This document shows, piece by piece, positions 22,321 to 59,375 of a DNA stretch of 64,000 nt. Each line of letters starts with the position of its first letter. Position 1 is the first letter of the stretch. Made by a program: the position numbers and the translations under genes. Origin of the DNA: Methanoculleus taiwanensis (GTDB taxonomy: Archaea > Halobacteriota > Methanomicrobia > Methanomicrobiales > Methanoculleaceae). The DNA lies in contig NZ_LHQS01000002.1 of the NCBI RefSeq assembly GCF_004102725.1, positions 62,001-126,000 of the forward strand, read 5' to 3'. Below the pieces are notes generated by a model that was not told where the DNA came from, ran no database searches, and saw nothing but the letters and a program-made list of their open reading frames with translations.

Positions 22321-23553
22321 ATGCGGATCGGGATCGATGACACGGATTCGCCGGCAGGCATGTGCACGACATACCTCGGAGCCGTGCTGATCCGCCGCCT
22401 CGGGGATATCGGCATCCGTGTCCGGGAGGCACGGCTCGTCCGCTTAAACCCGAATGTGATCTACAAGACACGGGGGAACGCGGCGATCTGCCTTGAGGCT
22501 GAAGGGGATGCCGGGCGCGCTTTCTCCGTCGCCTGCGCGTGTGTCGAGGAGCTTGCGGAGTTTGCCGCGGAAGGAACCAATCCCGGGGTGGTGGTCGCAG
22601 AATGCATCCCTCCTCCCGATTTCTACTATGCCGCGCTTCGGAGTTTCTGCACAATCGACGATGCCTGCAGGGTGCTTGAGGATGCCGGTGCACGTTACCG
22701 CGGCTACAAGAACCGGCGCGGGCTGATTGGTGCGACGGCGGCAGTTGCGAGCGACCTCCCTGACCGCACCTACGAACTGCTGGCGTACCGAAAGCAGGAC
22801 CGGTGGGGTACCCCGCGGCAGGTGGAGAAGGTCAGTCTCTTTCGTGCGGAGGCGGCGACGTATCCGCATACCTGGGACTCGGTCGACCGCGAGAACGGTG
22901 TGGTTGTCTGCGTTCCGCATACGCCCGATCCGGTGCTCTTCGGCATCCGCGGCGAGAGTCCTGCCTGGGTTATGCGGGCACGGGAGTATGTCGTCTCCGA
23001 AGAACCGGCCTGTGAGGCTGTCTACGTCACCAACCAGGGCACGGACGCTCATCTTCTCGCGGGATCGATCGGCGATCTGGTTGAGGGGCACTCATACCTC
23101 GCCCGGGGGCGGATCGCCGCCGAACCGGTGACCGGCATCGGCGGTCACGTCTCGGTCCTGCTCGAAGATAGGGAGGATGCCGTCCGCTGCATGGCCTATG
23201 AGCCGACCAAGCAGTTCCGGAGTATTGTCAGGCAGCTTCTTCCCGGGGACGAGGTGATCGTTGCCGGGAGTTTCAAGGGCGGCAGTATCAACCTTGAGAA
23301 GATCGGTATCCGCTCTCTCGCCGATGCGGCTGCCCTCCGACCGCCTCTCTGTGCGACCTGCGGGAAGCGGATGACCAGTGCAGGGAAGGAGAAAGGCTAC
23401 AAGTGCAGGACCTGCAGTGCACGGGCGGATGAACCCGAAAGGTTTTTCCCGCCCCGCGGGGTGCAACCGGGGTGGTATGAAGTGCCCCCGACGGCACGGC
23501 GCCACCTTGCAAAACCGCTGGTGCGGGGGGCTCCGGATAATCCCGTGGCCTGA
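22321..23553 (+). CDS. tiaS: tRNA(Ile2) 2-agmatinylcytidine synthetase
   Basis: 410 residues matching TiaS, which attaches agmatine to C34 of tRNA-Ile(CAU) with ATP so that it reads AUA codons; an essential archaeal tRNA modification. The N-terminus MRIGIDDTDSPAGMCTTYLG is the family signature, GYKNRRGLIGATAAVAS is in the kinase-like domain, an OB-fold follows (about 250-330), and the C-terminus has a zinc ribbon CATC...CRTC (about residues 342-362). Start is fixed by the family. It is divergent from the COG1395 gene and has its own TATA element. Confidence 0.96.
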   Translation: MRIGIDDTDSPAGMCTTYLGAVLIRRLGDIGIRVREARLVRLNPNVIYKTRGNAAICLEAEGDAGRAFSVACACVEELAEFAAEGTNPGVVVAECIPPPDFYYAALRSFCTIDDACRVLEDAGARYRGYKNRRGLIGATAAVASDLPDRTYELLAYRKQDRWGTPRQVEKVSLFRAEAATYPHTWDSVDRENGVVVCVPHTPDPVLFGIRGESPAWVMRAREYVVSEEPACEAVYVTNQGTDAHLLAGSIGDLVEGHSYLARGRIAAEPVTGIGGHVSVLLEDREDAVRCMAYEPTKQFRSIVRQLLPGDEVIVAGSFKGGSINLEKIGIRSLADAAALRPPLCATCGKRMTSAGKEKGYKCRTCSARADEPERFFPPRGVQPGWYEVPPTARRHLAKPLVRGAPDNPVA

Positions 23554-23640
23554 CCGGTGTTTTCGTTCCGTGCTGCCGGGGGCATCTCGTCCCGGCATCG
23601 TTGCTCCGGGAGGGCTTGCCTGAAGGTGTCAAGTGAAAAA

Positions 23641-23672
23641 GACTGACTTATTTAACTTATTCTTATTTTAAT
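23641..23672 (+). promoter_or_regulatory. AT-rich promoter of putative ncRNA
   Basis: About 30 bases almost without G or C (TTATTTAA and TTATTTTAAT elements) stand out from GC-rich surroundings and resemble archaeal BRE/TATA elements for a transcript starting at about 23677-23695. Confidence 0.55.
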
Positions 23673-23679
23673 GTGAATT

Positions 23680-23960
23680 GGCTAATCAAGTATGGTGATC
23701 CCGGAACGGGTGTACGTGATGAAACGGTCGGAACGTTCTATCGTCCGGCGCGGGACGGATCGGAGCCGATGACTGACGATCTCCGGGGCATGATGCCCGG
23801 GTGGGTGCAGAGAAGGCCGAATGCCCTCCGGAAACTCTTCCGGTGGCCTCCTCTGCACCTGCCCATCAAGAGATGGTTCGTTCCAAACTCAATATTCCCG
23901 GTGCGGTGTAGACGGGATCGCCCCGTGCCGGGTGCCAACATCTCCTGTTGACACCCCTTT
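23680..23960 (+). ncRNA. Putative structured non-coding RNA
   Basis: In the 540 bases between tiaS and the acetyltransferase gene there is a transcript-like unit: AT-rich promoter, about 270 GC-rich bases, and a terminator. Bases 23799-23818 pair with 23845-23864 in 19 of 20 positions (two G-U), and the enclosed loop contains a further perfect hairpin, CCGGAA-ACTC-TTCCGG (23828-23843). Other local hairpins include GGGCAT/ATGCCC near 23787 and ACGGG/CCCGT near 23915. A GTG-initiated frame of 92 codons (23673-23951) exists but has no ribosome site and a Trp/Arg/Pro-rich composition. I do not recognise RNase P, SRP or another known RNA. Confidence 0.5.
23931..23960 (+). terminator. Terminator of putative ncRNA
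   Basis: GTGCCAACA and TGTTGACAC form a nine-position stem with one mismatch around TCTCC, followed by CCCTTTTTT, an intrinsic-type terminator. Confidence 0.6.
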
Positions 23961-24093
23961 TTTCGATTTGATTCACTCGCGTTCTGCGCCTCTCCCCCTC
24001 TCTCTGGGGATAGTTTGATCCTTCTCCCTGTCCTGCCCGGAACGGGGCATCGCCGGCGGAATAAAAAAAGGAGAGGTGCGGTTACCGCTCGCT

Positions 24094-24606
24094 TTAGAGC
24101 TCGTAGACTTTTGTCCCCTCTTCCGCTCCGTCACCGCTGAGCTGAAAGCCGTTCTTCTCAAGAACCCGGATCGATGCCGTGAGATGGGGGTAGGTATGAG
24201 CGATGATCCGCCTGCCCGGATACGCGTGCCGTATCCGGGCAAGGAGGCCTCGAACACCTTCCGTGGCGTACCCGCGGTGCTGGTGCTCCCGCGCGACGGA
24301 GTAGCCGATCTCGAGAGTTCCATCGTCGTGCACCAGGAGCCCGCCGTTTCCGACGAGCGTTCGCGGTACTGCCTCGCCCTCTCGTGTCACCCAGTAGTAG
24401 GTCTCGACGCGGGGGGTCGCTTCGCTGAGCCGCTCGATAAACTCCTCGAGAACTTCAGGTGTCACCTCGTCCGGCGGCCAGGATGCCGGAATCCGGGCAT
24501 CGAGTGCAATGCCCAGCGACTGGCGGTCGAAGCGATCACAGGTCAGGAGCTCGACCGTTGCCGGTATGAGTTCCATTCGTTCGGTCCGTATGCAGACAGG
24601 TTTCAT
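24094..24606 (-). CDS. GNAT N-acetyltransferase, RimJ/RimL-like
   Basis: 170 residues. The acetyl-CoA binding signature is HQHRGYATEGVRGLLARI (about residues 108-125), and the later strand-helix pattern SIRVLEKNGFQLSGDG fits the RimJ/RimL branch of GNAT proteins, which acetylate protein N-termini or small molecules. N-terminal RTERMELIPAT is typical of the branch. The substrate is unknown. It stands alone, facing the putative RNA locus, with 278 bases before the deoxyhypusine synthase gene in the other direction. Confidence 0.9.
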   Translation of the reverse strand: MKPVCIRTERMELIPATVELLTCDRFDRQSLGIALDARIPASWPPDEVTPEVLEEFIERLSEATPRVETYYWVTREGEAVPRTLVGNGGLLVHDDGTLEIGYSVAREHQHRGYATEGVRGLLARIRHAYPGRRIIAHTYPHLTASIRVLEKNGFQLSGDGAEEGTKVYEL

Positions 24607-24884
24607 ACGTGGTCAACACTTTCCAGTAGTCGTATGGCAGGCGTGCGCCCGCAGCGAGGCGACCCGGTTCGTGAGGCGGAAGATCTCCTTAACGGTTCAG
24701 AAGCCGTCGAACCTCTCTTCTCCGGCCGCATGCGGGCAACAGTGGTCGGGAGCGAAGGTTCAACCATGGCATCACCGAAGGAAAATCTCTGCGCCTGCAA
24801 TAAATACTCGTCGCCCTCCCGGAGACGGTGTTATCGTTTATTGGGTATGAACGCCAATCCTCTAGTGAACTGGTGCAATTCATC

Positions 24885-25820
24885 ATGACCATACACTGCG
24901 GGGATGCGGTAGAGCAGGCAGAGATTCGCCCCGGGATGACGGTCGGCGAACTCATGGACGAGCTCGGCCGGGCGGGCGCCTACAATGCCGGGTCGCTCTG
25001 GAAGGCAGCGGGTATTTACGAACGGATGCTCCGTGACGAGGAGGCAACACGGTTCTTCGGGCTTGCCGGCGCTATGGTGCCCGCGGGCATGGGGGGTATC
25101 GTCTCGGATCTGATCCGGCGGGGGCATATCGACGTTCTCGTCTCCACCGGTGCCAACCTCACGCACGATATCATCGAGGCGATAGGGTGCCGTCACTACC
25201 ACGGCACCGCAGCCTGTTCCGACATTGAGCTCCGCGAAGAGGAGATCAACCGGATCTACGACGTCTTCCTCCCGAACGAAGCGTTCATCCGTTTCGAAGC
25301 GTTTCTGCAGGATGTCTTCGGCGAGCTCGAGGAGGGTTCCGTCGTCTCGATCAGCGATCTCCTGCGGGCGATCGGCGGGCGCCTGGAGAGCGGCATCCTT
25401 GCGGCGGCGGCAGAGAAAGAGATCCCGGTATACTGTCCTGCTATTCAGGACTCGATGATCGGGCTCCAGTACTGGCTCTTTTCCCAGACGCACCGTGTGG
25501 TTGTGGATGCCTTCGCCGATATGCCGGCACTGCTCGACCGCTGCTTTACGGCGGAGCGTGCGGGTGCGCTGCTCGTCGGCGGGGGTGTACCGAAGAACTA
25601 CATCCTCCAGAGCATGCTCATGACCGAGAAAGGCTTTGAGTACGCCGTCCAGCTGACGGGTGACCGGCCCGACCTCGGCGGCCTCTCCGGGGCGACACTC
25701 GACGAAGCCCGCTCCTGGGGAAAGATCACCGAAGAGGCGACAGCCGCGACCGTATACGGCGATGCCACGATCAATCTGCCGCTGCTCGTCGCGGCGGTGC
25801 TCGAGAGGCTGGAAGCATGA
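24885..25820 (+). CDS. dys: Deoxyhypusine synthase
   Basis: 311 residues. It transfers the aminobutyl group of spermidine to a lysine of aIF5A using NAD, the first step of hypusination. The active-site lysine is K280 in the motif SWGKITEEA, and the NAD-binding parts STGANLTHD and LLVGGGVPKNYILQ are present. The ATG at 24885 gives the family N-terminus; the frame is open back to 24828 without family likeness. A TATA-like AATAAATAC element lies near 24798-24806. It overlaps pyrF by four bases (ATGA), so the two are coupled, although their pathways are unrelated. Confidence 0.95.
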   Translation: MTIHCGDAVEQAEIRPGMTVGELMDELGRAGAYNAGSLWKAAGIYERMLRDEEATRFFGLAGAMVPAGMGGIVSDLIRRGHIDVLVSTGANLTHDIIEAIGCRHYHGTAACSDIELREEEINRIYDVFLPNEAFIRFEAFLQDVFGELEEGSVVSISDLLRAIGGRLESGILAAAAEKEIPVYCPAIQDSMIGLQYWLFSQTHRVVVDAFADMPALLDRCFTAERAGALLVGGGVPKNYILQSMLMTEKGFEYAVQLTGDRPDLGGLSGATLDEARSWGKITEEATAATVYGDATINLPLLVAAVLERLEA

Positions 25821-59153: not shown

Positions 59154-59292
59154 ACGGGTGTTGATACGCCTGCATGATGCTGTCGCCCGGTGTATCGGCA
59201 GAGAAGCCCCTTGCGATTGATACTTCATACCGATCGCGCCGTGCAGTTATGGACGAAAGAATCAATTATCCCACTCAAATCTCAAAAAGGAG

Positions 59293-59375
59293 TGCGAGGA
59301 GCCGGATTTGAACCGACGAACCCCTACGGGAGATGATCTTGAGTCACCCGCCTTTGGCCGCTTGGCTATCCTCGC
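59293..59375 (-). tRNA. tRNA-Leu (anticodon CAA)
   Basis: On the minus strand the 83-nt sequence folds as a class II tRNA: acceptor GCGAGGA pairs with TCCTCGC, the D-arm is AGCCAAGCGGCCAAAGGC, the anticodon loop is CTCAAGA with anticodon CAA, a long variable arm follows, and the T-arm carries GGTTCAAATCC. Discriminator A, as for leucine; CCA is not encoded. A TATA-like CCAATAGTATAG is near 59425-59437 upstream. Confidence 0.95.

Follow-up and report, generated by a model that had tools for sequence, protein, structure and literature searches.

The window, by which is meant the whole stretch of 64,000 nucleotides that was analysed, holds between a putative tiaS gene and a convergent acetyltransferase gene an intergenic unit that is almost certainly a conserved gene for a non-coding RNA. 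For all comparisons, 'Methanoculleus' designates the genus group g3, and the window is placed together with G037 (Methanoculleus sp. FWC-SCC1) in its sister genus. The features of the locus, in window coordinates, are the following:

22321..23553, + strand: putative tiaS (tRNA-Ile2 agmatidine synthetase), upstream neighbour and position marker, named from the original prediction and the sequence context
23641..23693, + strand: AT-rich presumed promoter island, 26% GC, 83% identical to G037 compared with 60% for the preceding intergenic stretch
about 23649, + strand: TATA-like box 1, CTTATTTAAC, recognized from the sequence
23663-23672, + strand: TATA-like box 2, TTATTTTAAT, its first base about 31 nt before GGTGATCCC
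23694..23963, + strand: structured non-coding RNA gene of about 270 nt, as judged from same-place homologs, covariation, 88% identity to G037 and no Rfam match
23694..23702, + strand: P1 5' strand GGUGAUCCC, predicted very 5' end of the RNA, paired in 34/34 sequences
23799..23864, + strand: central long hairpin with 19/20 outer pairs and an inner 6-bp hairpin
23898..23931, + strand: H4 hairpin CCGGUGCGG / CCGUGCCGG, arms 23898-23906 / 23923-23931, loop containing the P1 3' strand (pseudoknot)
23914..23922, + strand: P1 3' strand GGGAUCGCC (GGGAUCAUC in Methanoculleus), pairing with the P1 5' strand
23930..23956, + strand: H5 hairpin with its exposed loop AUCUCCU at 23940-23946, based on the fold and on the loop AUCYCCU in 34/34 sequences
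23958..23963, + strand: T6 run, presumed transcription terminator from the sequence, with a T-run retained in relatives
24094..24606, - strand: putative GNAT-type acetyltransferase gene, convergent with the RNA, named from the original prediction and sequence features

As had been predicted, an AT-rich island (23641-23694, 26% GC) is directly followed on its 3' side by a GC-rich stretch of about 270 bases (61% GC), and the unit closes with a hairpin and six Ts. The spacing of TATA-like box 2 to GGTGATCCC places the predicted transcript start at about 23692-23695. Methanoculleus homologs, in which the RNA comprises about 300-320 nt compared with about 270 nt in the window, possess TTTATAAT as a TATA-like box at a fixed or similar distance; their predicted start falls on GGTGATCCC, and they finish in a T-run. 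The 3' end of the RNA reads GGGUGcCAACAUCUCCUGUUGaCACCC-C-T6 (23930-23963); its hairpin is real, carries one mismatch and is absent from the list of a simple terminator scan. While the neighbours of the RNA vary across genomes, the RNA stays, with the TATA-like box at a conserved distance and the T-run at its end. At the sequence level, the RNA has a promoter and a terminator of its own, independent of the neighbouring genes, and it is from these signals that we infer its transcription.

The locus folds at -126.1 kcal/mol compared with -106.1 +/- 5.4 kcal/mol for dinucleotide-preserving shuffles (z -3.7; 0/200 shuffles as strong). The arms 23799-23818 and 23845-23864, for which 19 paired positions out of 20 had been claimed, reach this number with two G-U pairs included (17/20 are Watson-Crick pairs) and enclose the likewise announced second perfect six-bp hairpin, CCGGAA/TTCCGG at 23828-23833 and 23838-23843, with the entire central hairpin folding at -44.9 kcal/mol. 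In G037 this hairpin contains 3-nt insertions on both arms with the pairing preserved, and the single A-C mismatch is repaired. Overlooked at first were P1 (23694-23702 with 23914-23922) and the hairpin formed by 23898-23906 and 23923-23931, here called H4.

A nucleotide-level match was obtained in one of 40 genomes of the family, namely G037 (86%), the other genome of the window's genus, where the diverged homolog is located at the same position downstream of tiaS. Since the RNA is 87.6% identical between the two genomes (94.5% in the 3' domain) as compared with 60% for the flank before and 43% for the flank after the RNA and 52% for the fourfold-degenerate sites of tiaS, the comparison indicates that purifying selection acts on the RNA itself. 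With tiaS as a position marker and the downstream sequence read, nearly all of the 35 Methanoculleus genomes were found to possess a diverged RNA at this position, oriented alike. From 32 Methanoculleus sequences, with the window and G037 left out, a covariance model was built for the 3' domain; it identified the window locus as the best match within the 64 kb, with a score of 28.1 bits (E 9e-5) compared with 11.5 bits for the next match, and scored G037 at 33.3 bits. Applied to 232 genomes of the order, the model recovered nearly all Methanoculleus genomes and G037, with one copy each, and missed the window genome's own copy in the whole-genome search, so that diverged members might exist elsewhere. 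The gapped motif GATCRYCCCRYGYCGN{6,22}CATCYCCTGT occurs once each in 33 of these 232 genomes, all in the two genera, and read backwards as a control gave zero matches in the same genomes. The exact motif is absent from G017 and G019, which score 80-84 bits with the model, and in G020 the RNA copy is interrupted by the contig end.

Weak model matches in G132, inside a MutS-like reading frame, and in G172, without the invariant GGGAUC loop, were rejected, and two motif matches labelled Gemmatimonadetes and Chloroflexi, with at most 11 bits in the model, were considered chance. Positions 23765-23800 are 84-92% similar to the antisense of a FEPGIMTPEMVGHRR stretch in a 2-isopropylmalate/citramalate synthase-type gene of several other families (best E 6e-6 per genome); with the segment GC-rich and unconserved in G037 and 232 genomes scored, this similarity was judged to be chance. 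In G005 (L029 1055-1387), a direct repeat of about 14 nt, GCCCGGACCGGTCC, is located in the variable 5' domain, and it is absent in the near relative G004.

Beyond the two genera, no homolog was detected in the other genera of the order with a model that is not fully sensitive at whole-genome scale, G001, G038 and the incomplete G039 of the same family yielded no copy, and none was present downstream of tiaS in 18 genomes from five other families, in which deoxyhypusine synthase, where next to tiaS, is mostly directly adjacent. The common lineage of Methanoculleus and its sister genus would be where this single-copy gene arose, in the stretch separating tiaS from deoxyhypusine synthase. In one Methanoculleus genome, G003 (99% complete), the gap from tiaS to deoxyhypusine synthase measures only 127 nt, and a copy was not found elsewhere either. 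As G003 groups in the tree with the RNA-bearing G017 (support 96/88), this absence represents a loss, and the RNA is consequently not essential in this species. G003 (L118 / L045, RNA lost) and its sister G017 (RNA kept) thereby offer a natural knock-out comparison. The two genes on either side, tiaS and deoxyhypusine synthase, are neighbours in many other Methanomicrobiales examined, and in the window (22321-25820) the RNA and, as in its genus, the GNAT gene lie between them.

The structure was evaluated on 34 sequences. As RNAalifold on the full alignment without a pseudoknot confused the 3' end, domain-wise folding and a test of P1 as a pseudoknot were used instead. The resulting structure of 78 pairs has 89.5% of its cells paired compared with 34-42% when slid by 1-3 columns, and its covariation score is 0.158 compared with at most 0.075 in the slid control. 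Changes on both sides were observed in 29 pairs compared with 16.8 +/- 2.6 in shuffles; of the two controls, one ignores and the other keeps the relatedness of the sequences. P1, formed by GGUGAUCCC with GGGAUCAUC (GGGAUCGCC in the window), pairs in 34/34 sequences, with pair 2 realized as G-U (30), A-U (2) or G-C (2) and pair 3 as U-A or U-G; because the P1 3' strand sits in the H4 loop, P1 and H4 together constitute a pseudoknot. Between the genera, H4 changes from CCGACACGG/CCGUGUCGG in Methanoculleus to CCGGUGCGG/CCGUGCCGG in the window's genus with all pairs kept, through A-U to G-C on both sides, C-G to U-G and A-U to G-U. This near-invariant P1/H4 core is the most conserved part of the RNA. 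The H5 loop AUCYCCU, present in 34/34 sequences, is the only clearly unpaired element common to both genera; in the window's genus H5 also serves as the terminator stem, and in Methanoculleus a distinct, strongly covarying terminator hairpin of 11 bp lies 3' of H5.

Homologs in G037 and nearly all Methanoculleus and the detected covariation are what the original prediction had proposed to look for. That the structure arose by chance in GC-rich intergenic sequence, or that the locus is a pseudogene in decay, for which the negative result of the simple terminator scan might speak, has hardly any probability left given the homologs in more than 30 genomes, the covariation and the purifying selection; the comparative evidence refutes it.

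Would the locus instead encode a protein? That the RNA is the mRNA of a small protein, or has a dual function, with the 5' GGUGAUC as a Shine-Dalgarno sequence followed by GUG in Methanoculleus, is unlikely. GGUGAUCCCGUG is retained in nearly all Methanoculleus copies, and runs free of stops over at least 80% of the RNA are found in 28/34 sequences compared with about 12 in simple shuffles, an excess that is inflated by relatedness, recurs on the minus strand (23 compared with 11 in simple shuffles) and likely is explained by shared descent and GC-rich composition. The open frames across the RNA, however, differ between species and end at different places; the GUG frame reaches its stop after between 8 and more than 80 codons across the sequences, and the GUG is missing in the window's genus. 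Indels do not obey a multiple of three: taken modulo 3, the lengths from one P1 strand to the other fall into all three classes (10/8/14). The frame of 92 codons starting with GTG that had been noticed in the window is present there and is broken by a 1-nt deletion in its nearest relative G037. No conserved coding frame and no codon-like conservation were thus found in the sequences compared.

Another possibility is that the RNA serves in cis, as a riboswitch-like leader or attenuator of deoxyhypusine synthase downstream, or is what remains of the leader of a lost gene. Both tiaS and deoxyhypusine synthase are tied to agmatine/polyamine use, in Methanoculleus deoxyhypusine synthase is co-directional and located about 100-250 nt downstream of the RNA, and the RNA ends in a terminator hairpin, all of which would suit a leader. 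The hypusine pathway itself is treated in PMC5178350. On the other hand, the RNA is not always a same-strand 5' leader of deoxyhypusine synthase: in both genomes of the window's genus the opposite-strand acetyltransferase gene intervenes, with the RNA equally conserved, and an element that is conserved upstream of deoxyhypusine synthase and belongs to that gene persists in genomes that possess the RNA, that lack it (G003) and in which it is separated. Such a leader is therefore very unlikely, and the earlier suggestion that the RNA could be the leader of something lost is disfavoured by the TATA-like box and terminator that the RNA possesses itself and, in the window's genus, by the opposite-strand acetyltransferase gene that precedes the next gene on the strand of the RNA. 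The upstream element of deoxyhypusine synthase, GGTGTTATCGT...ATGAACGCCAAT...CTGGTG at about 24828-24888, is common to Methanoculleus regardless of the RNA.

Most likely, judged from the sequence features, the RNA is an independently transcribed, non-essential trans-acting sRNA, whose action we infer from its conserved loop. Transcription would start from the archaeal promoter of the gene at GGUGAUCCC and end at the T-run terminator, upon which P1 would tie the 5' end of the RNA to the 3' domain via the H4 loop, lock a compact body and, as a pseudoknot, protect the 5' end. H5 would expose the loop AUCYCCU, which is complementary to AGGRGAU, and this C-rich loop might pair with such purine-rich ribosome-binding sites of target mRNAs and block their translation. 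In these genera the 16S tail reads GGAUCACCUCCU. Speaking against this mechanism, AGGAGAT itself precedes 0/56 long open reading frames of the window, although GGAG-type sites are common there. The masking of ribosome-binding sites is a tentative proposal, which we hold at somewhat below even odds, and a conserved non-coding RNA gene acting in this way, both together, is given a probability of roughly 0.42.

The large body and the near-invariant H4/P1 core exceed the needs of a simple antisense loop, and the RNA could be part of a protein-bound RNP. Accepting the same gene, it is possible, if rather doubtful, that the RNA is a scaffold or decoy for a protein, RNA polymerase or the ribosome, with the P1/H4 pseudoknot as putative binding site. 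It is this core that is most conserved rather than a single-stranded seed, the 5' end GGUGAUCC (23694-23701) exactly complements the 16S 3' end GGAUCACC (as seen in G037 and G004; a search of the window's assembly did not yield it), and the P1 3' strand GGGAUCAUCC resembles the 16S rRNA tail. Two species with the 5' end GAUGAUCCC lose the rRNA match but keep P1, which argues that intramolecular pairing is what selection keeps, and the loss in G003 speaks against a universal housekeeping part. A related scenario, to which we attach very little probability, would hold the 5' end, a perfect Shine-Dalgarno sequence, in the pseudoknot by means of the internal mimic of the 16S tail and release it to ribosomes, in the manner of a trans-acting, translation-responsive switch; if true, this would represent a new class of genus-wide archaeal RNA.

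Neither the locus nor six relatives matched Rfam 15, relaxed thresholds giving only chance matches, and no non-coding RNA of Methanoculleus was found in the open-access literature. The archaeal RNase P RNA (RF00373) is similar in size, structured and pseudoknotted, but the locus does not match above the gathering threshold and the genome's RNase P RNA is encoded elsewhere (G000:C3:27545-27867, 221 bits). The archaeal SRP RNA (RF01857), also structured, of about 300 nt and with its own promoter, gave no match at the gathering or the relaxed threshold, and ARAGORN and Rfam indicated no tRNA or tmRNA at the locus, the only tRNA of the window being tRNA-Leu at 59292-59375; the three known classes had rightly been set aside in the original prediction. 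As to the C/D or H/ACA guide sRNAs, Rfam gave no match either, and the one C-box-like sequence noted, GUGAUGA at about 23717, is changed to GUGACGG in G037. The proposal of a new archaeal family is upheld by the same-place homologs, the covariation and the missing Rfam match, and on this comparative basis a new non-coding RNA family of Methanoculleus and its sister genus is well supported as a candidate for Rfam. Among the hydrogenotrophic methanogens of biogas plants and sediments Methanoculleus is dominant, and a single-copy RNA with a covarying pseudoknotted core in nearly every species provides an entry point to RNA regulation in Methanomicrobiales.

Likened by description only, the intergenic sRNAs of Haloferax volcanii such as sRNA132 are archaeal as well, and their deletion is reported to give a phenotype (PMC6560208). 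Closest in description is the trans-acting sRNA154 of Methanosarcina mazei (also sRNA41 and sRNA162), the RNA of a methanogen with its own intergenic gene, genus-level conservation and a stable looped fold; its loop 2 carries an anti-RBS sequence, masks the ribosome-binding site and represses glnA2 (PMC5867862). The likeness is one of description, and the RNA reported here differs in that it is pseudoknotted, belongs to another order and has no Rfam match. Intergenic structured sRNAs are thus already known in methanogens, and it is this architecture and this family that are new.
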